DNA from: Sipunculus nudus
Lineage: Eukaryota; Annelida; Sipuncula; Golfingiida; Sipunculidae
DNA length: 64,000 bases
Direction: 5' to 3'
Assembly: GCA_026874595.1 (NCBI GenBank)
Contig: CM049322.1
Coordinates: forward strand, 8,050,900-8,114,899
Below, in pieces: positions 1-16,339 of the stretch. The notes under the pieces were generated by a model, which searched no databases, had not been told where the DNA came from, and worked only from the letters and a program-made list of their open reading frames with translations. The stretch's first letter is position 1. Each line of letters opens with the position of its first letter. The translations under genes were made by a program, and so were the position numbers.

Positions 1-310
1 AAAAAGATGACTTCCATATAAAACATGTTTCACCAAAACATGTCTCAAAGAGAAACATGTTCAGACACCAAAAGATTGAGACATGTTTCTTGTAACATGT
101 TTTGAAAGTCAAACATGTCATCTTTAAACGTGTCTTGAAACGCGTTTCAGACATCTCGGTTTTAAAACACCAGGGACTTGAAACATGTTATTGTCTCGTT
201 TTTCGAAACACCAAAAAGACGTTTTAAAAGGTGACGTGTCTTAAGACGTGTTTCAGACGTCTCGGTTTTAAAACACCTGTGGCTTGAAACATGCAGCTGT
301 CTCACTCTCG
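1..310. repeat. Left subterminal repeat array of the CACTA element
   Basis: About fifteen copies of a 9-12 base motif of the form AAACRYGTTTC, in both orientations, alternate with AAACACC words. The same words recur at the other end of the element. In plant CACTA elements such arrays are the binding sites of the accessory protein; that role here is inference. Confidence 0.8.
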
Positions 311-1552
311 AGAACACGATTTAAAAGCTAAAACTCATGATAAAATTATTGTTTATTTATGCAAGTTAACGCTGCGTGATAATGTGTTTGCAGCATCTAT
401 AAATATACATGTACCATCATACGTTATTATGTAAATCATCATATGAACAAAAGCAGAAGCCATTATATTCATTGTGTGGCTTGTATATGCCTAACAGAAG
501 TACATGCATGGATACATACTCAATGAACAAACTAACAGAATTTCCTTCAGAATAACATTTCTGATTTTTTTTAAAACTAATCTATAATATTGGTAAGTTA
601 TTGAGCCCACAATAAGGCAAATACAGTAATTACTGATGCATCATAAGAATTAAACATTTTACCTCAAAGTATTACATGGAAATAATGTTTTTTAAAGTGT
701 GATATGGATGTAAATTAAACATATGTTTTAGTTGCTTCTTGCAATGATGAAAATCTTAATAAATAGTCACATAACAAAGGAAAATCATCCCTTTTTACTG
801 AATGTCCATAACAGTTACAAAAATGGTAAAACGTTTATCTACCTTTGACTAACTCTATTAATATAAACATATGAAAAAAGATATACAGATAACTTTAAGA
901 TAAAGTGTATCAATTTATCTATTGTAAAGACCGTCCTATGAAAGAAATCTTGAAACTGAACTACTTTGATTTTATGAAGTTGAAATTAGCATGAAATAAC
1001 AATCCCTTTGCATTAAAAAACTTGCTTAATCACTACAAACAAACTTATCAAACCAGAATGTAATGCCTGATATACACCATACATTCATCTTAAAGACTCC
1101 ATGAATCTTTTTAAAGACATGCCTTAATTGTGGTTAGTTAAATCACTATAACAGTATAAAGATTAAAATATCGACTTGTTTTTATACTATAATTAATCCA
1201 AACTGTGCCCCCAGTTTCTATAACACTACACATCAGGACAAAGTTATTCCATATCAACCACTTCTGTGTAACCTTAAAGTGCTTTTTACATCTGAATGCA
1301 TCTGAACTGTTGGCCATATATCCACTTTAACACAGTACTTTCAGGATGCAAAAGATAAAACACTAGTCAGCATACAACAAGGGATGTATTTTAACTGATG
1401 TATAAACTGATGTAAACAGCATCCACATGCTTTCAAGGTGCAAATGAAAAAACATCAGCAAAGAACACTGAATTTATTTCAAGTCTCTTTTTATTTGACC
1501 TGTCGACTGTATATAAAAAAGTAGTACTTCCAGGGAGAAAATGAATCAAGGG
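311..1552. other. AT-rich non-coding interior of the CACTA element
   Basis: Lies downstream of the last exon of the SAMD3-like gene. No coding frame, RNA gene or repeat was recognised. Confidence 0.5.
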
Positions 1553-3409
1553 ACCTATGAGCCACGGCGCTCAGCTGAAGTTTGAAATTTTAGCAAATGC
1601 AAAACATGATGATTTCTATTGTAATGTTTTTCATATATATAAGCATTAGAATAGCTAAGAGAAAATGGCCCTCCTACTTGGTCATAGTAAAGTTCTAAAT
1701 ATATGATTGCAAAACTAATACTTTGGCAAGACTGTCATGAAGAAAAACAGTAAAAGTTTTGGGATACTTTGATGCATAAGTAAATTTACAGATGGACAGG
1801 CGACTGGATAAAACGGACTGATAACATTATTTCACTTTCACGAGAATTTAGTTTATAATAAACCCTATTTTTTTCAGCATATTCACTATTTCCAGTCATA
1901 GTTTTCATCAGATTAATTTTTTTAATTGACAAGTTTCTAAATTTGTAATAAAAAGGATCTAAAAATATGTTAAAATATCAGAATTGTAAGTTGCATTATT
2001 ATTTATCCAGAGTTAAGCTCACATCAGGTCATATTATGCACACATATATTTTATTAATTTTAAATCACAAATGTTCAAACTGAATTTAAAGAAAATATGC
2101 AATAACATGGCACCTTCAAGATTATTCCTTGAATCACAATTTACAAGTTTTGTACATAGGAGTTTTCAGTACAAGTTTAATTTTATTCATTGAAATAAAA
2201 AGGTTCAGTAAAGTTGATTAAATAAAAACATCTTTTTAAATGAAGTATACACACTGTTGGTTGAATGAGGGACAAACAATATCATGCTAATTACTGTCTT
2301 AGCTATAATTTAATTATTACTGGAATTAATATCCAATTTCACACCTGGTGAAGTTTTTCTCTTCTAAAGTAAGGAATTTCTTATCTGATGAACATCCACA
2401 CTTTTATAGCAATACACCACTTTGTGGACACAATTAAATGTACACTTTAATCATTGTAACCAGGGTGGTACAATACAAAATCTAAAATGTAGCATAGCCT
2501 AGAATACGAATGAAAACAATACAGAAAATTATAACATTCATCTAGCTAATGCACCATCTGGTGGGGGGGGGGGGGGGGAGGGGGGGGAGGTTCAGGGCAG
2601 AGAAGAAGCCTGCAAAGAGGGGAAACTGGCCAAGCTGAGCCAAGGCAAGCTGCCTTGAGTGGATTACATAACACAGGTGAAGGCTGTACTAGGTGGGCTT
2701 GATGTTAACAACACTTGACATGGTGTATAAAAGCTACTCTTTTCCATTTATTACTTTGAAATTTCAGATTTTAATAAATTAAATTATGTATATATGCTGT
2801 GAAAATTAAATCAACAGAGCTTACAGGGGAAAATTGTGCCAGGGCCAAAATTTAAGGTATTGATTTTTTATTTATGCTAATAACTTTAAAAAATTGCAAA
2901 ATTTAGATCTTCTTTTTGGTAAACAATTGGACCTTGATTAAATAAAGTTATATCCCTGAAAAAAAGTATCTAGCTTCAGCAATTCTTATGTTAAGTGAGT
3001 AAATATATTTCCTGATTTTTAAAAAGTGCATTATGTTTGGGCGTATAACTTCAATAAATTAAGTAATACTGAACCAATTTTTGGTTTGAACACAGGAAAT
3101 GTATGGAATTAAAAATATGCATATTAAATATGATGTAAAACAGATCAGTGGTTTTGATATTAGGCAGTCTTGAAGTGTATCAATAGGTTTTTAATGGAAA
3201 ACATAGGTATTTCCTTAATATCTCAAAGGAACAAAGTCCTAATGACCCAATTTTTGGCATGGTAGGAGATTTTGGGGACATCTAACTGTATGCAAAATTT
3301 TGGATTTGTAGCTCCAAGTTTCAAAATGTGCCCTGTTAATGGATGGATGGACAAACGATGGACAAAGGACCATGACTATAGCTCAGATGACTTATAGTCA
3401 GCTGAGCTA
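1553..3409 (-). repeat. Hairpin-ended dispersed repeat, reverse orientation, possibly one long copy
   Basis: The right edge (3379-3409) is the 31-base hairpin of the family: arms TAGCTCAGATGACT and AGTCAGCTGAGCTA around TAT. It is preceded by ATGGACAAAC-type text matching other copies. The left edge (1553-1576) carries the other family end, CGGCGCTCAGCTGA. Internal words such as TTAGGCAGTCTTGAAG (3161-3176) recur near 10302-10317, within the copy at 10275-10552. Whether one element spans the whole interval is inference. Confidence 0.5.
2563..2590. repeat. Poly-G tract
   Basis: Sixteen Gs, one A and a further G run. It is one of several long G or C runs in the window, and a G-quadruplex could form. 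Confidence 0.9.
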
Positions 3410-3806
3410 ATAAAAGTGTAAAACTTTTCTGTTCAAAGGAAGCATTACTGATTTATTAATATAAAAATTGGATACTTTTCAAGGGTCGTTTTTACCAGCA
3501 GCTGTTAGTTTTTCATTGATTTACTATAAATCACTATGCTCATACCAAAATAAAACATCGATCTAACTGACTAACTTTACAAAATATGAAAAACAAGTTT
3601 TAATATGCTTTAATAATGTAAAGTGTTTAACATCAATAAAAAATCCTGAACTACTCCTCATAACTTTCAAATACCAGAAATCATGCCCTAATCAATATAA
3701 AATTGCAATTTCAGCACTGCTGCAAACTACTAATAACACAGGTTTTTATCACACTGTAATCTAAGCATCAGGTATTATAGGGTAGAGTCAATGAGTTGTA
3801 ATGAAG

Positions 3807-6800
3807 TCATTTGAGCAGAGCCACAAACTGCTTATAACCTGTAGACTTGTCCTTCATGGGAACCTCTTCTTCAAGGCAGTTTTCTTGAAGCAAATTCAAC
3901 AGTTGCATGTTGGGTAGTGGATATGTGAGGTTAAGGATGTAATACCAACCCAGTAAAAGAAAGCACGTCTCCCACACACATCCTTCCTTGATCAGATTGA
4001 TCTGTTTTCCATCTCCCAAAATAACGCTTGATCGGACCTCTCCTTTATCAACAATAAAAACTGAACTCGGTTCCTCACTGGTAACTGATGTTAGAGAGTT
4101 CTGTGATACTTCCTCCTGAAAAAAAAAAAAAAACTGTGAATGCAACAAGCAACAGAAGTCACTTTCTGAGTCACCTGGGCTATACTATTGGCCCTTTCTG
4201 TGTCAATCATCTGTTAAAAGGGCATACACCTGATTACTACAATATTAGGCATAGCATAATCAAACTTGTAAATAGAATTCTATATTTTGCTGATCACAAA
4301 TTTTCAGGAAGTGTTTGCATACATAATATGATGTCTGTAAACCAACATCTCAGGAATGGCTGCAGTTATGAGAACCTAATTGTATCAGCCAGAACAGAGT
4401 TTTGCGGATACCATGTTTTCAGTCAGATGTCGCTGCCGCTTAGGTTTCACGAGAACTCATCTGTAACCACTGGGCAGATTTTTTTAAAATTCGGAATTAT
4501 GATGGGGTCACGTGAACTGCTGCGCCCTCATTTTTGACTGACCTTTGACCTTTCCCCTCCGCCCAGCATCCATTTGTGCATCTGTTTCCACACATAAACC
4601 CACATATCTCAGGAACCGTTTGACCGATCAGGCTAAATATTTTGCACAAATGTAGCCCTTGGATATCTTTACAACATATACTAAAAATGGTGGTGCCACC
4701 TGCAACAATTTTTGCGCAGCATTGATCTGTTCGTCTGCCTTGGGATAAAATCACTCATATCTCTGCATTGGTTTGACTTATCCACCGGAAATTTTGCATG
4801 TGTATTCATCCTGGACAGCTTTCTTGATTTTATGACAGGTGGCGCGACCTACATTCATATTTATGCTGCAGACATCATAGCTCATATCTTGGGAACTGTT
4901 TGACCTATTGGGCCAAAATTTGCAAGTGTTCAGACCTCACATAGCTCTTTATCATAGTCAAAACTGGTGGCTCCACCTGCAACCATTTTTGCACAGCTTC
5001 CATCTGTTCATCTGCCTTGGGATAAAATCACTCATATCTCGGCAGTGGTTGACATATCTGCCTAAAATGTTGCATGTTTATACATCTATGATGGCATTTC
5101 TCGATTTTTTGGCAGGTGGCGCAACCTACAAACACATTTTGGCTGCAGACATCCATGCTAATATCTCAGGACTGGTTTGACATATCTCCCTGAAAATTTG
5201 CATATGTATAGATCTACATAGCTCTTAATCGTACACAAAATTGGTGGCTCCACCTGCCACTACTTTTGCTCAGCGTCCTTCTGTTTTTCTGCTGTGTGAT
5301 GAAATCACTTACAAGTAGTGGTTTGACTTATCTGCCTAAAATTGTGCATATGTATAACTTGGACAGCTCTCTGGATTTTGTGGTAGGTGGCGCAACCTAC
5401 ATACACACCTCGATCTATTTCCCCTTCCCACTCCATCCATGCATCACTTCACCAGTCCGACTCTGATTTTGGCAGACACATTTAGTCGCTTGTCAACTAC
5501 CTGTATTCTAGTTTTACAGGATATTGATCATTTGAACAACAGACAGTGCCACCTATGTAAGCCTTTCTTTCTGTGAGCTGAGGCTGAAAGGGGCCCTTCT
5601 AAGAGTCTGAACAATTGTAACCAATCACTCTGTTCCAAAATTAGGACTCATGTATCCAAGGTTTAAAAGTATATCTGCTTATCACAGCAAATCTGAGATC
5701 AGTCTTTAATTATTTATTACTGTAGGGCTCTATAGCCAGAGCAGGCTTTGTTTTGGCCAATATGATGAGAGACTTGCTAACGAAATAAAAATTACAAGAA
5801 CAAATTACATATTACATGTATACTAACGATTCATAGAGATATCACCAAGTCCAATATATATACATGATTTGCATTGTTGAAAAGCTACCTGTTTAGAACT
5901 TCATACTGTGTTCAGAACCATGAGTACTCGACTGAGACTTGGGGTGAAGCCACCAGAGTACATTAGTACCCACTACTACCAATTTAACCCTCCTGTTATC
6001 TGTAATGGTATATTTCACTCCCAGATTTAAACCACTTTGTGGAAGTGCCACTTATGCATGCCTACAGCTGAAATGGTATTTTCAAGTTTACAATTTTATT
6101 TCATCGTTATTTATTACCATGTTCTATTTAACAAGAACATTACACCCCTTGAGTCTCTTGATTCTTCAAATGCAGCCTAGTATCATGGCTCATGGGCATT
6201 GTGTATGATCTAATGTAACTCCCAATGTGTTTATGCAAAGAAGAATTAATCACACAAGTCTTTTCTGTTGATTATTTTGTAATGAGGCAATTAACTGCCA
6301 AGCATAAAATCTATAAATTTTGGATTTGTTCATTCCACACATGCATTTTGCATTTTGATCAGATATAGCAACAAAAGATAGGCCTCTGGTTTACTCACGA
6401 CAAAGTAGAAGAAATGATTGGGCTAGTCAAGGAGGAATGTTTATATATTATACTGGCCCAACAGAGCAATGGAAAATTTGCAATAAATATATGAAAGAAG
6501 ACAACAATGGACCCAAAGATTTTAAGTTATAATTATAATGTATTAAACGGTAAAGTTAAATGGAATTGCTAGATTTCAAATGACATAATGCAAGTACAGA
6601 TCGCTAATAAACTGAAAAGGCAATGAAAGTCTAGCTCCCCCCCCCCCCCCCATACAATAAAAAACTGAAGCATACACAGATGGACGGACAGAACGACAGA
6701 CGGACAACTGACTATGGACCATTGCTTAAACTCAGTTGACTTATAGTCAGCTGAGTTAAACAGCTAGATATAGGGTAATCAGAATAAGCACAGGTAAATG

Positions 6801-8729
6801 CAAAAAACATATAATACAACTTACAGATTTTAGGATTTTTATCACTTCCTTCTTTCTTTTTCTTCCTCTGTGGGAAACACGTGCTTCTGCAATTTTAAGG
6901 AGCTCCAACATGGTTGCTTCTTTTTTAAGGTCACAGCCAGTGTTTTGGAAATTTTCCATTTTTCTCATGAATTCCATAAAGTTTTCTTTGAAACTTTCTT
7001 CTTTGTATCCAAGCATTTCCATTTCAAGTTTTGTACAAACAGTGTCCTCTAGCCAAGGATATTCAATCAATACTGTGCTGAGTGTAATTTGTGTTGATGG
7101 CTTACTATGTATCCAATCTTTACGATGTTCAAATGTTTCCCTTTGCCATTTTTTCACTTTCTCCATGTCTGGTTGAACTTTCATTTTTTCTGCCTTTAAT
7201 TTCTGAATAATATCTTCCACCTCAAGCTCCTCTTCTTCTGTTTGAGAAGCTTCTTCCTCCAAATTTGCTGTTGACAAGAGCTTTGGTTTTTTTGCTGGGT
7301 ATTCATCACAAGCTGTATTAAATTTCTTCATTTTTTCCTTTCGACGATTTCTAGTGTTCCTTATTTTAGCAGATAATTTTGTGTTAAAGAACTGCCAACT
7401 GCTTTTTCCCTCCATTATCAAAAGTGGGTATTTTATTGTCATCGTTTTCCCTGTGAAAAGAAAAGTCAAGAAAACTTGTATCAGTCTTACCCAACAAATA
7501 AGTCCTGAAATGAGTTCTAAATGCATATGACTAAGTTCAGCTTCTGATAACTCAGCTAAAATTCAATGAATCAGAACCATTTGAACAACTTTGAATAAGA
7601 ACCACTAAAGAATCATTCCTGTGTGATATTAAACCTGTGCAACAGTTCATGAGATAAAAGGTAACAGATTTTGCACAATATATGCAAACATAAAAAGTCA
7701 TAACATTTCTTAATCAGTAAAATTCAGAGTCTTGTGGATTCAGGAAACATTATTTTAAAAGAAGAAAGCAGCAGGGGTTTTAAAGATAATTGGTAAAAGG
7801 AGGATGCTGGATGTGTGGACGGACGGACAGATGGACACAGGCCATTTTAATAATCCTCCTTCCTAGAGTTAGGGGGACTAATTATGCTCCTTAATCAGGT
7901 TTTTTTTCATACCATACCCCACAGGTAAAGAAATATTCTTCGGCTCCTTAAACTTAGAGACATCACACTGAACAACAGTTTAAAACTGGATCAAATAAAC
8001 ATATGGAACAATAACTTTGTTCTCCAAGCTCAGTCTAAGCAAAGTTCCAACAGTAAAGGCCTTTTAGTTTATGTGAATGATAACATAACCTAAATAGCAC
8101 CAATGAGTGAAAAATAAACCCTTTTGGCATATTTATGTTCACACAGTTACCTATACCTATGATCTTAGCTGCTGTGGAAATGAAATTTTATCAAAGGTCT
8201 GTGACAGATGTCATATTTATTACAAGCTTTTCAATATAACTTTAAATCATGTAGACTATAGTTTACATCCTCAAAATAGGAAACTACAGATAAGAACTTG
8301 AGAACCTTAGGAACTTAAAGCTATAGATGGAGTCCATTAATGGCAGTATGGGGGAAATAAAACATGTTAAGTGAAAATGTAACAGAGAAACATCAAAGAG
8401 AACAAGAGTAAATCTTTTTGTGGTATTTGTGGACAAAATAACATACCAATGTTTTCATATGACTGCTTAGCCCTTTCTGAACTGGTGGGACAGAGAGGCA
8501 TGTAGAAACCTGCAGCTTCCTCTATTATTTGGTTGTAAACAGCAAGAACCCTTGATTTGTCATTCCCATTCAGCACAGATGAAACAGGCCCAGAAAACTT
8601 TGGTAACGGGGCTGGGTACGGAACTACAGGCAGATCTTCAAGTTTCTCAGTTGATGCTGTCACAGGAAGACTTGGCCCTGCTTTGGGGAAGTGACTGGGT
8701 TCAGATTGAAGCATGTTATCTTCAAACAC
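3807..8729 (-). CDS. SAMD3-like CACTA accessory protein, three exons visible
   Basis: Exons are 8729-8447, 7450-6825 and 4115-3807, on the minus strand. Each junction has good signals: acceptors CTACAG, TTCACAG and TTTCAG, donors GTATGT and GTAAGT. Phases fit exactly (0, then 1, then 0). The product reads ...SYENIGKTMTIKYPLLIMEG, then a basic and acidic coiled stretch (KKPKLLS... EEELEVEDIIQKLK), then a C-terminal block GWYYILNLTYPLPNMQLLNL before the stop. From memory of the family, this order matches animal proteins named SAM domain-containing protein 3-like: KYP-L-W motif, R/K-rich linker, and a late LNLSYP block. These occur beside EnSpm transposases. The first visible exon begins in phase 0 without its own obvious ATG, so the N terminus probably comes from the upstream SAM exons. 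It may bind the subterminal repeats as TnpA does in plants; that is inference. Confidence 0.72.
4480..5470 (-). repeat. GGTGGCGCCACC-type tandem array (reverse orientation)
   Basis: Four to five degenerate units, each with a 'CATATCTC... TTTGACCTAT... TTTGCA... GGTGGC(G/T)CAACC' pattern. They match the array at 30412-31320 in the opposite direction, down to the shared end (TCACGTGAACTGCTGCGCCC here). It sits in the intron between the last two exons of the SAMD3-like gene. Confidence 0.8.
5471..6636. other. Intronic AT-rich DNA
   Basis: Intron of the SAMD3-like gene. Nothing recognised; a poly-C tract follows. Confidence 0.5.
6637..6757 (-). repeat. Poly-C tract followed by end of a hairpin-ended repeat
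   Basis: Fifteen Cs (6637-6651). Then GATGGACGGACAG text and a hairpin with arms ACTCAGTTGACT and AGTCAGCTGAGTT (6730-6757), the family end in reverse orientation. Confidence 0.75.
7527..8446. other. Intron of the SAMD3-like gene
   Basis: The intron runs 8446-7451; this entry covers its part beyond the coding exon. A short GGACGGACGGACAG repeat fragment lies at 7818-7840. No other feature was recognised. Confidence 0.5.
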
Positions 8730-9058
8730 CTGTAGAATAGTAAATCATTTGAATATAATTATGACAGTTTAAGTCTTGTTGTTGGTAATGACAATATAAA
8801 GTCAGGGAATGGACAGAGAGAAACAGATATGATCCATTTTATTTTTATAAGGTTATTCCATTCCAATTATAAGTAATCCTTATCTGCTTCTTTTACCTGA
8901 CAATCGGACATTCTACAGCCTCTTTAAAAATAACAACACACACTGGAAGACTACCTGTATATAAAGTATAAATGCCTGGAATGAGACCAAGTGACATTGG
9001 TTATATAATGGAGTAGATGCATTTTTCAATGTGTTTTACCCTGAAGATAATACTATAT

Positions 9059-9340
9059 TTAATAACATATATTGATAGTGAACATGCTTTTGGCTAACAT
9101 GGGATCCATAGGACACAGTGCTCTGCTGAAATTATCTAGGAGGGTAATAAAATCCTGGCCTAGCATTTTAGTAATTTGTGTGGAAATCCTGCAATTTCTT
9201 GGCAATATTGTCTGCATAGCATGTGTTCTTTCTCTCAGTTGTCTGCTGATCAGCATGTCATATTTAACAGTAACATGAAGTACTGTTGCTCTTGCACCTA
9301 TGCTGGCATCATGAATGATGAATACCCTTTTATCTAGTTT
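9059..9340 (-). CDS. Candidate alternative terminal exon, unknown product
   Basis: A 94-codon open frame (93 residues plus TAA) begins right after a fair splice acceptor (TTGTCTACAG, 9350-9341) and lies between the transposase and the SAMD3-like exons. It starts KLDKRVFIIHDASIGARATV and ends LAKSMFTINICY. The frame is phase 0, so it could be joined to the phase-0 donor of the SAM exon at 13026. No family was recognised and no internal donor was found. It could be chance open sequence; the opposite strand also has a 68-codon frame here. Confidence 0.3.
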   Translation of the reverse strand, partial: KLDKRVFIIHDASIGARATVLHVTVKYDMLISRQLRERTHAMQTILPRNCRISTQITKMLGQDFITLLDNFSRALCPMDPMLAKSMFTINICY

Positions 9341-9399
9341 CTGTAGACAAAAATACAATCCTTGTGAAAATAATATTCTTTCAGCAAACATAGCATCAT

Positions 9400-10270
9400 A
9401 GCATTAACATTTATAGATCAAACATACTGACTGCAAAGTTCAGAAGAGCAACACTGTCAAAAACAGATTGTATATTTTTTCTACACACACCCATACAATG
9501 TGGAAATAAAGTATAATTTATTTCATTAACATATAGTACTCTTTACTTTTATTTATATTTTTAATCAGTTTAACACATTTTAACAAAGGGAAACAAGTTA
9601 TCTGCAGTAAGGATAATGCTGTCGTTGGTAATTTATGACCAATATTTCTAAACAAGTATTTACACAATTCGCACCGTTCATTCTTTTGTGAGAGATCAAG
9701 CTATGAATGAGATCACATCATAAGAAATGAAATGATGACAATGTTATAACGTGACCACTGAAGATGATGCTATGATAACTGGAACTGACAAATAAAGAAA
9801 GAAAGAGCAGTGAGCCTGACATTAGACAGGACCTCTTTTTGTCTACATAAATTTCCATTTACAGTAAATGATGTTCTAAAAAATTTCAGGGAACTCATGT
9901 AGATCCTCCTGAAAACAATGCACCATGGAAGAATTAAATTGTATCTCTGTTGGCAGAGAAATTTGCCAATGATAAATTTGGAAAACCTTTTTGCTTGAAA
10001 TAAATTAAAATCAATGACTTCTATAATTCACAAAGTCAGATCTGATCTTTGGTATACACTAAGATCTAGAGCAAAATTAATAACGTCCTCAAATAGTTTT
10101 TATAACTCTAACATGTAAATTATTAACTTAGTGCAATCTAAATTTACTTCATATCTTTCCTACTTTTTTGGACTAGTACAACATATTACAGTCAGTAACC
10201 TCTACAAACAATGCAATATTGATTTAATTATCATCACAAACATGGACAATATACTGAAAACCCTTCACGG
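9400..10270. other. Non-coding interior of the CACTA element
   Basis: AT-rich sequence between coding modules. No gene or repeat recognised. Confidence 0.45.
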
Positions 10271-10274
10271 AAAC

Positions 10275-10552
10275 TTGATGGAAAAAAAATGTGGTTTTAA
10301 TATCAGGCAGTCTTGAAGAGTAACAATTAGACATTCATGTAAAATGGAGATTTCTTTTGATTGCATGACGGCATTAGGTCCCAGTTACCAATTTCATGTA
10401 TGGTAATAAACAGTTTTTGTATGCAAAAGTTCAAGGTGGTAGCTTTACTGGTTTAGTTTGTGCGCAGTTAATCAATATCTGGTTGGATGGACAGACAGAT
10501 GGACAAAGGGTCATTGCTATAGCTCAGATCACATATGGTCAACTGAGCCAAA
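10275..10552 (-). repeat. Short copy of hairpin-ended repeat
   Basis: Contains ATCAGGCAGTCTTGAAG (shared with 3160-3176), then GATGGACAGACAGATGGACAA and the hairpin region ATAGCTCAGATC...GTCAACTGAGCC. Lies just downstream of the transposase stop codon. Confidence 0.7.
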
Positions 10553-10600
10553 AAAAAAGCAGATTTGAAATAATCTGATTTACAATATTTACATTTATAA

Positions 10601-13002
10601 TCATGGCTCCACATATGGTGCAGAGATGATGACAACAGTGTGGTATTCCTCATCTGTATGGAAGCACAAAGCAGGCCAAGGAACATCCAGTTGTCCTGGG
10701 TCTATGGTGATGCCCTCTCCTCCATTGAAAGAAACGTTATAAACATTTTTACTTTCAATATATGTAGAACACTTGTGCCTTTTCCCATACATGACCACCT
10801 TTTTGGTAAGACTGGAAACATATATTTCTGATATTTGAGTAAAAATGCAGTGATCTGCCCCTTCAGACCAAATGACAACCACAGAGCCAGTTTTGTATGT
10901 TACACCAGATGTTCTCACACAGCTGGAGAGAAACCACTGTTCAGCTTGTGCATCAGGTATGTTTCTGATATAATCTGGAAGAGGAACATATTTCCCCATA
11001 CTTGTTACTGGGCTGGGATTCAGAAAACTTGGGTTCTCAAACTGATGTAAGCACATCCACTGCTGGTGACAATATGCCAATGTCTTAGGAATGTTTTTGA
11101 AGTTTCTGTATTTCTTGCGTTTAAAAATTTGATTTTTTCCTTCGAATCTCATGCACCAATGTGCTCGAAGTGGACCAAACTTCTGAAGCTGCTCAGGGAG
11201 ATGAACCATATAGTGGATTTTGGGGATTGTTGCATAATCTGGATACAGAACTGGAACCTGTGAGATGAATTCTGCCACAAGCTGTTTCAGCAAATTTACT
11301 GTGATTACATCTGCCACTGGTGATGTTACTAGTGTTTGTATTTTCAGAAGTACAATGAAGTGTTGCCATCTTGTATAATCCTTGGGAACAAAGTTTCCTA
11401 TGAACAATGGAAGCAAATGAGAAAAGTACTGCATCTGGCTTGCAGTCTGCCTAAGTTTAGCTGATTTGAGTGACATTTGATCTACCTGATTAGGCTTCAT
11501 GGGCACTGATCCAGATTCATTCACCTTTTCAAGAGCATTATTTAAGTCTGCTAGACTGAAAAAATGTTTCTGAATACAATCTTTGAGAAGTTCTTTAATA
11601 ATGTACATGGATATACCCTCAAAAAATATGTGCATGGGGTCATGAAGTAGGCATTTGGTAATGTCAAATTCTGGAAGCCCCATTAAAACTGATCTTGTGT
11701 TTACTCCATATTCTTTAGACCAATATTGTCTGGCTTGTGGCGTTAGAGCCTCTGATAAAATTTCACACTCCTGGGTATGCCTCTCTAGATGACGCAATGT
11801 ACAGTCATCATGCACAATTAGATTTGTAATTTGATCCTTTGATGCATAGCAGGACATGCAAATTCTGTGTGAAAGACCCACTCCTGCTTTGAAACCTCCT
11901 ATTGTATGCAATGCCAGATTGTCCCCACTAAATGTGAGCAGCTTGCCATAAAGAACCCCAAGGCCATCCACATTTATCCCATTGCTGTACAGTTCTTTCA
12001 ATCCTCCAGTAAAATCACTTAAGATATCATTCATCCCAAATGATTTAATGTCTTTTGTTTTAGCCAAACCAACAAGCTGTATGCAGTGTAGCTTAGACCT
12101 ATATTGCTGTGGTATATTCAGTAATTGCCAGTAGAAGACTCCAATTTTGTGTTTTTTTGTATGAACCCCAACAGGATTTGCAATTTCGAGGTCATCATAA
12201 TAAGCCCCAATCCAAAGCTGACACTCTTTCTCTCTTGTAACACTGAAAGAGTCACCATCATAAATGTCTCTCATTTATCATCCCTGCTTTTATAGTTTTC
12301 TATTGGTTTAATACATTCCCTAACTTCAGGGATCTTTAACAAGGACCTCAGATTGTCCAAAAATGGCACAACATATCCTTGAGCTTTTACCTTGACCATC
12401 CTTCTGTTTTTTTTATTCCACTTCATCCTTGTTCCAACTGTTAGTTCAATAGGTTCCAGCAAATTTAGTGTCTCCCTGAAATATTTCTGCTGTTGCCATT
12501 CAGAATTCAAAGGGGCTATCATCTCTCCTGAGATTTTTGAACAAATGTTACTTATATGAGCCTCACTTATCTCATCACTTTCTTGGATAGTTTCACAAGT
12601 CTCTTTTACAACTTGTTGTACTAAATCAGAACATGATGATACTACTTCTTGAAGTCCAGCTTGACACAAATTATAATGGGCTTTAAGCTTTAACAGCAGG
12701 AGTCCAAGCAGTGATGTAGTTGCTAACTGGTCAGCAAGCTGATCATCTGTCAATCTGACATTTTCTAAAACATCACTGTCCACTTGTTCAATATTACTGC
12801 TTGGATCCTGGACAGAACTGTGGTTTCTTTTAACATGTTTCCTAAAGGAATTGTAGTTTTTATATGATGCTCCACATTCTACACATGACACATTAAAATA
12901 AGGGTGGGTTTTGTGTCTCTCAATTATGTGATGCGACAGCAATGGTTTAAGAGTAAATTGACAAGGACACAATGTGCACTGGAACAGTGGCTCCATTTCA
13001 CC
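10601..13002 (-). CDS. CACTA/EnSpm transposase: C2H2 zinc fingers plus DDE core, split by a frameshift
   Basis: The exon opens at 13002 after a TTTCAG acceptor, in frame with the SAM exon. Two textbook C2H2 fingers follow the first Met: C-x2-C-x12-H-x4-H at residues 7-28 and 38-59. This first frame of 241 codons after Met ends at TGA 12273-12271. A second frame of 557 codons starts with an overlapping ATG (12274-12272). It carries the core of the animal EnSpm (tnp2-like) transposase: YYDDLEIANPVG with D27/D28, FSGDNLALHTIGGF with D118, and HDPMHIFFEGI with D211 and E218. The family is normally one continuous protein here (finger region, then 'DI.DG..F', then 'YDD.E..NP'), so the overlap looks like a one-base frameshift. 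A coupled stop/start is the alternative. The protein would cut and rejoin element ends in the nucleus. Confidence 0.85.
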
Positions 13003-13025
13003 CTGAAAGGATAAGACTAAATTAC

Positions 13026-16018
13026 CTGGCCCAGTTCATTCTGTAGGATCCTGAGAAATGCTTTCTGTAAACCAATTTCAGGAAACATAGTCTTCACATC
13101 CTCAAATTTTAGGCTCAAGAAAGCTTCTCCATCAATGAAGTTCTCTAAAAAAAAAATTCATTTGAATGGTGCATTCTACTACTCAAAGTGTCAAATTCAA
13201 ACTTGAAACAGTGAAAAGTATCAACACCCACTAATATTGTAAAATAAATAAAATTAACAACATGCCTTCTGTTGAATATAACATTAAACTGCATTATAAT
13301 AAGTAATTACTGACTACACAACCATAAATAATAGTACAAAGCATGTTGCATAACAATATTTATAGGTCTGATATCTTTTGAACATATATGCAGAAGGTAT
13401 ATCACATATTATAATACTACAAATAAAAGAGCAAACCGCTATTATAACTTATAAAGCTGTTATGATCATGTGTGGTGTTTGGATGGCCAGAAATAAAACC
13501 AATTGAAACAAGAATATAACCATACAAAACCATCAACAGTGTCTCACCAGAGCAAATCTCTCATCTTGGATCTTCTTGTCCATCTTACTTATTTGTAGAT
13601 ATTTTAAAATGGTGGTTTATCATGAAAAAGTATTAACTGTATTTGTAACAAGGCCTACAGACCCAATGTGTTTCTGGCATTATGCCAAAGTTGATAAAAT
13701 CTTGGCAAGAAAAAGAGCTATTGTTTACAAGGGTTTTTTTTCCAAGGTGATATATTCATCAGTTTTTTTTTTTAAATAAATTAACAATAATAAAAAGATG
13801 TTTATTACATGCAAAGTCAGACCGATTCTCACTTGGTTCAGACCAATTCGGGGGGGGGGGGGGGTTTAAGAGACCAACATATGGCTTGATAAAAATTTAT
13901 ATATACTGTTATATATACAAAGGGGATACAAGTACCGACCAATCTTTGTACTTTGGGTGATAACTGAGGTGTGTGATGTCACAAGACCCAGTTGAGGCTC
14001 TGTGAATAAAAGGGCCTACATCCCGCAGGCTTTGGTCAAGTACATATACTTGTACTTGGTACTTGAACTTAAGAACAAATATCTTGGTACTTGTACTTAA
14101 GAACAAATATCTGAGTACTTGTCCTGTACTTGTTCTTGGCAATTTTAACCAAGTACAGCCGTCGCTTGATTAAAACTGATATATATATACTATGGGAATA
14201 TGGGCAGAGATTCATCATTATACTTTGGGTGATAACTGAGGTGTGTGATGTCACAAGACCCAGTTGTGGCTCTATGAATAAATGGGCCTACATCCTACAG
14301 ACTTTGGTTATGTACATGTACTTGTACTTGGTACTCATACTTAAGTACAAATATCTGAGTACCTGTCCTGTACTTGTACTTGGCAATTTTAACCAAGTGC
14401 ACCCATCACTTGATTAAAACAGATACATATACTACAGGTATATGGGCAAAGATTCATCATTATATTTAGGGTGACCACTGAGGTGTGTGATGTTACTATA
14501 CCTAGTTGTGGCTCGGTGAATAAATGGGCCTACATCCTACAGACTTTGGTTGAGTACATGTACTTGGTACTGGTACTTCAGTACAAATATCTGAGTTCTT
14601 GTCCTGTACCTGTACCTGGCACTTTTAACCAAATACAGTCCCTGTACTGTACTTGCACTTGCAATAAATGTACTTGAAAAATCAAGTACTTGTCAAGAAC
14701 AAGATTTTAAAAACAAACAAAAAACTAATATCCTTTTACCATAAACTTCTTTGTTCTCACAGAAGCCAAATTATGCAACCTGTTCCATATCCAGTGAATG
14801 ATACAGATATAAACAATGTTTATTATACACAATAAAAGAACAATTAGAACAATTTGTGCATTTTCTTTATACAAATGAATTAAATGATATGTGTTTGTAC
14901 TTCATTACAGACTCCTGTACATGTACTTGAGTACACCTAAAAATTCTGTACTAGTACTTTGATTAATCCTTGCCAAAAATGTACTGGAAAAATCAAGTAC
15001 TAGTCCGAATACTAAGCTGAGATACTTGTACTGCACGGTACCTTAATTGTAAGTGTACCTGTTGTTGACCAAGGCCTGTCACCTGTCCCAGTGAGCTGGC
15101 CACAGCTAACAGTTGTTTCAGTCAGCAGGTACATACATGATACAGTCAGCAGGTATATATCATTTTTACTGCTAGCCTTGCATTCAGCCATGCAGGGTTA
15201 CCAAAACAGGTATGTTCATAATCCGTCCTTTTTATGAGACATGGCAAACAGGTGTTTCATTAAATGTTATTTCCTTGCAAATACTGAAATATTATTTTAT
15301 ATTACCAGCTGGTATCTTGTCCTCCATGGTACAGTTACTAACATGTTAACTGGTCTCTGATCTAGAGATTGCAGGTTTGAATCCTACTTAGGATGACTTC
15401 TTGTATTCATTGATATTTCATGTTAGTATAAATGGCATGATTGCAGGGATCATGATGTCTGGTAATATACTAGTGCTACAAGTACCTGCTCACCTTCACT
15501 AGTGAACAGCCGTGTAGCAGCTAGTAATATACAAGGGATTTAAATACATGAAAACAAACAACAAATTTCTTTAATTTTAACATTCCAAAATGTAGACAAG
15601 ATGCTGAACACTGTCAAAAGTAGGCCTACTGTGCATCAGTTTCATGTGCTGTCCGCTAGATAAATCAAATTTCGAGTGAATACACAAGAGCCACAACTTG
15701 GTGCGGGGGGGGGGGGGGGGAGTGGTGCTAAATCTATTGATGTGTTCACCACTATTAAACAAATACCTGTGCACCATATAAAGTAGCAAATTAGGTAATG
15801 TAATATATATATATATTTTAACAATGTGCTCACATGTTGTGAACACATTTCAAGTACTCATATGAACCATATTTAAATATAAATCACGATAATTAAATAC
15901 TGAGCCTACCTTTCAACCGCTTCTCAATCGCAGATTGCACGGCTCCGGCAAATTTCGTTCTTGCCCACTGACACACAGTATCGATGGTTGAATCAGACGT
16001 AATTTCGGTTTCTTCCAT
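13026..16018 (-). CDS. 5' SAM-domain module of the CACTA transposase (two exons)
   Basis: Exon 1 is 16018-15910. It starts MEETEITSDSTIDTVCQWAR and ends in phase 1 at a GTAGGC donor. Exon 2 is 13144-13026. It follows a T-rich tract ending in AG and reads ENFIDGEAFLSLKFEDVKTM, then ...LGQ at a phase-0 GTAATT donor. Together they give 76 residues with a SAM-like pattern (W, then IDGEAFL-L, then a late F-RIL). Exon 2 continues in frame into the zinc-finger exon at 13002. Because its donor is phase 0 it could also join the exon at 8729. SAM domains mediate protein oligomerisation. The ATG lies about 320 bases inside the element end, just after the subterminal repeats, with a TATATTT-like box about 100 bases upstream on the minus strand. 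Confidence 0.72.
13850..13864. repeat. Poly-G tract (15 Gs)
   Basis: Uninterrupted run of 15 Gs seen directly. Confidence 0.9.
13905..14650. repeat. Three-unit tandem repeat of about 240-270 bp
   Basis: Each unit runs 'TTTGGGTGATAACTGAGGTG... TGATGTCACAAG... AATAAATGGGCCTACATCC... TACTTGTACTTGGTAC... AATTTTAACCAAGT'. The phrase TGATAACTGAGGTGTGTGAT starts at about 13958 and 14230, and a diverged third copy near 14470. Confidence 0.85.
14640..15060. repeat. TACTTG-rich degenerate repeat
   Basis: Scattered GTACTTG, GTACTAG and AAAATCAAGTAC words continue the theme of the array to the left. The two TGTACT(T/G)GAAAAATCAAGTACT phrases near 14670 and 14983 are similar. Confidence 0.6.
15319..15397 (+). 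other. tRNA-like segment (SINE head or tRNA relic)
   Basis: The ends GTCCTCC and GGATGAC pair at 6 of 7 positions. An inner GTCTC/GAGAT stem has a seven-base loop, and GCAGGTTTGAATCCTAC resembles a T arm with a pol III B box. The anticodon loop has G instead of T at position 33 and the D region is too long, so this is not a normal tRNA. A tRNA-derived SINE head is most likely. Confidence 0.35.
15705..15720. repeat. Poly-G tract (16 Gs)
   Basis: Uninterrupted G run inside the first intron of the transposase gene. Confidence 0.9.
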
Positions 16019-16139
16019 GACTTTGTGAGGCAGCAGAACATTAAAAAACAGTTGCAGCGTTCCGTCAGAACATTTTCTTCCTTCCGAGACTTCTCCCGCC
16101 CGTTATTGAAAAGGACAAATATAACGCCCGTTGTGACTT

Positions 16140-16339
16140 ATGTCGCACCAGAAAACGCTTGTAAAACACGTTTGAGACGTGTGTACTTCTTGTAAACACG
16201 TTTCTGGTGTTTCGATCACGGAAAATTTTCATGAGCTGAGTTCCAGGTGTTTCGAAACATGTCTATTGTTCAAACGTGTTTCTATATGAAACACCACCAT
16301 GGATTTTAAAACACTTGCGAAACGGCACTTTTTAGAGTG
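16140..16339. repeat. Right subterminal repeats and terminus of the CACTA element
   Basis: Words AAACACGTTTGAGACGTGTG, AAACACGTTTCTGGTGTTTCG, GGTGTTTCGAAACATGTC and AAACGTGTTTC echo the left end. The element ends ...TTTTTAGAGTG at 16339; its reverse complement begins CACTCTAAAAAG. Confidence 0.8.

Follow-up and report, generated by a model that had tools for sequence, protein, structure and literature searches.

A CACTA-like element of Sipunculus nudus with its transposase nested in an intron of a predicted SAM-domain accessory gene

How might one transposon make two proteins when the reading frame of one lies inside an intron of the other? This question is raised by a minus-strand element in the genome of Sipunculus nudus. 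In maize En/Spm, the intron-1 region of tnpA contains the large tnpD ORF, according to the excerpted text of PMC2613891. An earlier note on the present DNA, made from its letters alone, likened the element to En/Spm as a maker of TnpA and TnpD from one transcript by alternative splicing, and proposed a SAM exon spliced alternatively to a transposase exon and to an exon of a 'SAMD3-like' protein (the note's label for the accessory body, kept here as a name only). We analysed the whole stretch of 64,000 nucleotides (C17:8050900-8114899, hereafter the window) and sought relatives of the element in the same 1.43-Gb genome. Features are collected in Table 1, in which, as in the text, a slash in a splice-site sequence marks the exon boundary.

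Table 1. Features of the window element (window coordinates).
Feature	Position	Strand	Evidence or remark
CACTA-like element, 16,490 bp in total	1..16339 (5' end at 16339) plus 151 bases left of window base 1 (3' end)	minus	copy boundaries, ends, flanks
5' subterminal region, four AAACAYG/CRTGTTT motifs	16090..16339	minus	motif count
SAM exon 1, ATG 16018, phase-1 donor AAAG/gtaggc	15910..16018	minus	donor rank 3/793
SAM exon 2, phase 1 in/0 out, donor CAG/gtaatt	13026..13144	minus	open in copies, conserved, donor rank 7/793
29-nt gap, exon-2 donor to transposase ATG	12997..13025	minus	
Transposase ORF, N-terminal zinc-finger part	12271..12996	minus	copies; frameshift near 12.28 kb in window copy
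Transposase ORF, remaining part, 557 aa	10601..12274	minus	at least 80 genome matches
SAMD3-like exon a, phase 0 in/1 out, acceptor ctacag/GTG	8447..8729	minus	
SAMD3-like exon b, phase 1 in/0 out	6825..7450	minus	
SAMD3-like exon c, phase 0 in, with stop	3807..4115	minus	

Ends, copies and class of the element

The element starts with CACTCTAAAAAG and finishes with CTTTTACAGTG, ends of the CACTC...CAGTG type. A terminal core of CACTA type is present, CACTC at one end and, reversed, CACTGTAAAA at the other, with a core that is CACTN, not exactly CACTA, and a short inverted match. The relative C2 begins with CACTGTAAAA, keeping the CACT start at its 5' end, and the CCC ends of animal TRC elements (SmTRC1 type) are absent from the window element. 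A 2-bp TG/TG repeat flanks the window copy, and such repeats were found in four of the five copies with both ends seen (the window copy, c17b, c16 and c9; c11 is without). The motif AAACAYG/CRTGTTT occurs 26 times—four within 250 nt of the 5' end, 15 within 490 nt of the 3' end and seven between—with 19 of the 26 clustered at the two ends as subterminal repeats, the 3' set lying partly left of the window.

The SAMD3-like exon has twelve matches in the genome including the window's own, and both flanks of ten of the other eleven (all but C1:29308162) were compared with the window copy. In six copies (c17a, c17b, c11, c8, c1 and c12p) the greater part of the element is present and ~96-99% identical, with gaps or inserts in some of them. 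From c12m the bulk of the transposase is missing, and c16, c15 and c9 have neither SAM exon 2 nor the transposase. Tandem repeats of ~242 nt (window 14632-14083) and ~277 nt (5285-4683) lie in introns of the element. At seven further loci (C2:51414036/51410630, C2:39016080, C5:47757959, C4:21916034, C17:50697837, C16:59463815 and C15:1796568), SAM exon 1 and exon c lie ~3.2-3.4 kb apart with exon a, exon b and SAM exon 2 unmatched between them among the matches listed; they look like a non-autonomous family formed by deletion.

No match to Transposase_21 (PF02992) came from scanning the window transposase protein against Pfam, and the window element is not among the 17 genome matches to that model. 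Ten of the 17 (E 0.002-0.007, below the Pfam cut-off) are loci also hit by the window transposase, with E from 8e-33 to 6e-57. A match of the window transposase to DUF4218 is weak (E 0.02-0.03) and also below cut-off. From its ends, target repeats and gene layout we class the element as CACTA-like, the link to Transposase_21 running through relatives only. The remaining seven Transposase_21 matches exceed the cut-off and are transposases of other kinds than the window's.

A predicted SAM-SAMD3-like gene around the transposase

Joined in order, exons 1, 2, a, b and c encode an uninterrupted protein of 481 aa, with all four junctions compatible in phase. The phase-0 end of exon 2 and the phase-0 start at 8729, both put forward in the earlier note, are confirmed at CAG/gtaatt and ctacag/GTG, on either side of an intron of 4.3 kb (13025-8730). 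Splice sites were scored over window 3501-16339 (793 GT sites, 826 acceptor candidates) with a matrix built from approximate splice-site frequencies; the donors of exons 1 and 2 rank high (Table 1) and the acceptors only moderately (exon 2, 237/826; exon a, 124/826). Phase agreement by itself is weak evidence: a 93-aa ORF between the transposase and exon a (9340-9059) also has a phase-0 acceptor. That ORF was considered as an alternative last exon and rejected, being intact in two of eight copies and split in six, with all 14 of its genome matches inside copies of the window family. High donor ranks, together with an exon order and phases that recur in the divergent families described below, point to a gene structure that is more than chance.

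SAM exon 2 is open in all eight copies that hold it, among the 11 compared. Exons 1 and 2 together match the Pfam model SAM_Ste50p narrowly (21.3 bits against a cut-off of 21; E 3.2e-4), and their homolog in C2 matches SAM_3 and SAM_1 below cut-off (E 0.012 and 0.015); a search of solved structures with the SAM part gave no match. No Pfam model exceeded its cut-off for the SAMD3-like body, for which the structure search returned a single match, at E 1, that is not credible. Comparison of SAM exon 2 between the window copy and C2, C10, C15x and C17z gave pN 0.27-0.34 and pS 0.62-0.86; for exon a, exon b and the zinc-finger part, window copy against C2, pN was 0.33-0.41 and pS ~0.8. Synonymous change is saturated in most pairs, so for most no dN/dS ratio is given. 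By these values SAM exon 2 is under purifying selection, and both proteins have therefore been maintained as proteins.

The SAMD3-like exons could instead belong to a separate gene with a noncoding first exon and a start at ATG 8714, leaving the SAM exons to encode a small SAM protein only. The earlier note had held that the exon at 8729 lacks a start of its own, which is true of C2, where no ATG precedes the conserved block of exon a, but not of the window copy, which has an in-frame ATG at codon 6 (8714), or of C10, which has one at the same place. The want of an ATG in C2 speaks against a separate gene. So does the stretch from transposase to exon a, where window and C2 share only short DNA matches (the best, 70 nt, is of sequence found elsewhere in the window too), although this argument is weak, as noncoding exons need not be conserved. 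We regard a separate SAMD3-like gene as very improbable. That the SAM leader feeds the SAMD3-like exons is, by contrast, a well-supported prediction, given the donor, acceptor, phase and order conserved across families and the signs of purifying selection.

Retrocopies of the joined exons were also sought: none of 20 matches crosses the exon-2/exon-a junction and none of 41 SAM matches crosses exon 1/exon 2. One candidate for joined exons b and c, C5:44488812, reads as a decayed piece and was rejected.

All of the transposase ORF, which opens at ATG 12996, falls within the intron that separates exon 2 from exon a. It is a single ORF of 798 aa in c17b, c11 and c1, is broken by a premature stop in c17a, and carries frameshifts in c8, c12p and the window copy. 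The stretch from the transposase to exon a includes seven polyadenylation-like hexamers, of a kind that AT-rich DNA also gives by chance.

Divergent families in the same genome

Genome searches yielded at least 80 matches to the transposase and at least 103 to the SAMD3-like protein. At C2:35705503 and C10:46224551, whose transposases are 64% and 62% identical to the window's, exons a, b and c follow downstream in order on the same strand and SAM exon 2 stands immediately before the transposase (...GWQ/GTA...). C2 keeps exon 1 with its phase-1 donor, the phase-0 acceptor of exon a and the a/b phase; the decayed C10, with a stop inside exon a, has also kept the phase-0 acceptor of that exon.

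A genome search with the SAM peptide gave 41 matches, 13 of them divergent exon-2 matches outside the loci already read. We read nine of the 13 (all except C15:49104927, C1:50489390, C5:66381605 and C3:81995772). Although picked by their SAM match alone, each of the nine shows sequence of the transposase N terminus immediately after exon 2 (E 3.9e-4 or better). C15x/C2x and C17z are distinct families; C17y, C7x, C2y, C11x and C3x are kin of C2; and C8x is a decayed relic. Several of the nine are decayed, some with stops in the SAM frame, and in four (C17y, C2y, C11x and C8x) the transposase start codon is lost or out of frame.

As a control for ascertainment, we read the 1-2 kb upstream of transposase at 13 readable loci chosen by transposase (a fourteenth reads N). 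SAM-C exons occur in C2, C10 and C17x, while C2b and C4n have SAM-N-like exons just ahead of the transposase. No SAM exon was recognised in that stretch of the remaining eight (C15, C7, C6, C3, C4, C11n, C13n and C3n), and in C13n and C3n the zinc-finger part was unmatched as well; the arrangement is therefore not established as universal. The SAM profile was trained on the window copy, C2, C10 and C17x, so matches to those four are no independent evidence. For the C2b exon, Pfam SAM_1 gave a match under its cut-off (E 4e-4); the C17x and C4n exons have no Pfam match, C17x matching the window SAM peptide at E 0.003 and C4n being called SAM-N-like by manual reading. At C17x the SAM-like exon and transposase start seem to be tandemly duplicated (stretch L042 976-1740), the last duplicate having an ATG 5 nt behind a donor-like GAG/GTAAA.

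The exon-2 donor is CAG/GTA in the window copy, C2, C10, C15x/C2x and C17z, and the transposase ATG follows at a distance of 29 nt in the window, 19 in C2, 57 in C10, 19 in C15x, 20 in C2x and 33 in C17z. The SAM frame of all five of these SAM-C families meets a stop 2-6 codons beyond the donor, ahead of the transposase ATG (in the window copy after two codons, VI), which is only a mild sign of a separate reading frame, stops being frequent in AT-rich sequence. How the SAM frame stands to the transposase frame differs from family to family, and C15x and C2x disagree in it although they are close copies. Fusion of SAM and transposase by read-through was rejected on these two grounds, the stops and the varying frame.

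Splicing models and relation to known elements

The earlier note had SAM exon 2 spliced to both 13002 and 8729. Part of this fits: 13002 is in the transposase frame, phase 0 obtains at all three sites, and the acceptor at 13002 scores well (rank 25/826). An intron from 13026 to 13002, however, would be 23 nt long (13025-13003), too short for animal spliceosomes, and its AG is lost in copy c12p. Elsewhere, C15x/C2x have no AG at all between the exon-2 donor and the transposase ATG, C17z has AGs only of the wrong phase (they need a phase-2 donor), and the sole phase-0 AG in the C2 gap would leave a 19-nt intron. Splicing of one leader to both bodies is extremely improbable on this evidence; the proposal that the SAM leader feeds two proteins is well supported for the SAMD3-like exons—by donor, acceptor, phase, order and selection—but not supported for the transposase.

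If SAM exon 2 were skipped, phase-1 exon 1 would be joined to an acceptor in the gap that precedes the transposase ATG, and open AGs of compatible phase do exist in this gap in the window copy, C2 and C10. The gap has no AG in C15x/C2x and only AGs that need a phase-2 donor in C17z; in the window the phase-1 AG is a poor acceptor (rank 566/826), and joining exon 1 to 13002, a better acceptor, leads straight into a stop. We consider exon-2 skipping improbable.

The want of an acceptor in C15x/C2x implies that the exon-2 donor goes unused in the transposase mRNA of that family, or that this mRNA starts close to or after the donor. Under the second option a promoter within intron 1 or close to exon 2 would serve the transposase alone, and SAM-SAMD3 would be spliced independently, with no common switch. 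The transposase does have an ATG of its own, in good context, its ORF is unbroken in three copies, and none of our computations displays a transcription start common to both genes; against this, the transposase start keeps within 19-57 nt of the SAM donor in five families despite introns kilobases long. This closeness suggests that the RNA, or its translation, needs it. An own promoter is possible, if on balance unlikely.

We rather favour one transcription unit for both proteins, in which use or non-use of the exon-2 5' splice site would decide which is made. A minus-strand unit common to both proteins of this CACTA (En/Spm-like) transposon would be spliced from exon 1 through exons 2, a, b and c to give the SAM-SAMD3-like accessory protein, presumably a TnpA-like partner that may bind the subterminal repeats. 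The transposase, at the start of the second intron, would be translated from its own ATG on RNA in which the exon-2 donor is unused, whether by retention of the intron or by cleavage and polyadenylation inside it. The short SAM reading frame would precede the transposase ATG on such an unspliced transcript, and the ratio of the two proteins would be set by this single 5' splice site. Use of the donor against non-use, through retention or intronic polyadenylation, is the simplest common model for the families read.

Several results count against this model: the want of retrocopies among the matches scored, the moderate acceptors of exons 2 and a beside the good score at 13002, and the eight transposase loci with no recognised SAM exon in the 1-2 kb read upstream. 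Two further points fit retention less well. Reinitiation after a SAM frame of ~78 codons is inefficient by the usual rules in animals; a frame of that length upstream of the transposase ATG would make translation from it inefficient and counts against retention. C4n, too, is poorly explained by retention: its SAM-N-like frame stays open for 35 codons beyond the donor and crosses the transposase ATG. An intron of 56 nt with a long T tract could exist in C4n, though its acceptor would not be in frame with the phase-1 donor.

More tentatively still, the one 5' splice site could act as a rheostat. Used, it would yield the SAM-SAMD3 regulator; unused, a dicistronic mRNA with a SAM-only microprotein frame and the transposase ATG 19-57 nt beyond. 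The SAM-only peptide could co-assemble with SAM-SAMD3 and poison it, a built-in copy-number control conserved across several animal CACTA families. We consider this idea unlikely.

The likeness to En/Spm that the earlier note drew is good as regards an intron-nested transposase, and fails for one leader spliced to two bodies. According to the excerpted text of PMC2613891, the maize element likewise has an accessory gene of many exons, a transposase ORF in a 5'-proximal intron that is absent from the accessory mRNA, and subterminal repeats. It differs from the window element, whose predicted accessory protein is SAM-SAMD3-like, whose transposase occupies intron 2 (in C2b and C4n it follows a SAM-N-like exon), and which has CACTC/CACTG ends and 2-bp target repeats. 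Tgmt* of soybean, a large CACTA element (20.5 kb), expresses from a single gene both a precursor mRNA for the transposase and mosaic transcripts of smaller size; unlike the window element it is a plant element with a multi-exon transposase gene, and the same excerpted text mentions no SAM domain for its accessory protein (PMC2613891).

The earlier note judged that such logic would be notable in an animal element, a view overtaken since 2006, when several alternatively spliced transcripts of SmTRC1 of Schistosoma mansoni were demonstrated by ESTs and RT-PCR (PMC1636069, excerpted text). SmTRC1 resembles the window element as an animal CACTA-related element with 2-bp target repeats, and makes several proteins from its alternative transcripts; it differs in its size (~4.5 kb against 16.5 kb), its CCC rather than CACT ends and its 54-bp TIRs, and the excerpted text describes no SAM-SAMD3-like part (PMC1636069). 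Among the papers listed by our search of the open-licence PMC literature, none appeared to treat a SAM or SAMD3-like protein together with CACTA elements, or a SAM-exon/transposase arrangement. Alternative transcripts in an animal CACTA-related element are thus already known, and the conserved SAM-exon/transposase arrangement is the new part.

With this arrangement, animal CACTA elements gain a defined two-protein anatomy that resembles En/Spm, and a possible reason for the association of a SAM-domain accessory protein with the transposase. It also names a single splice site whose use is directly measurable. If the model is true, splicing control of transposase output would be common to plant and animal CACTA elements.
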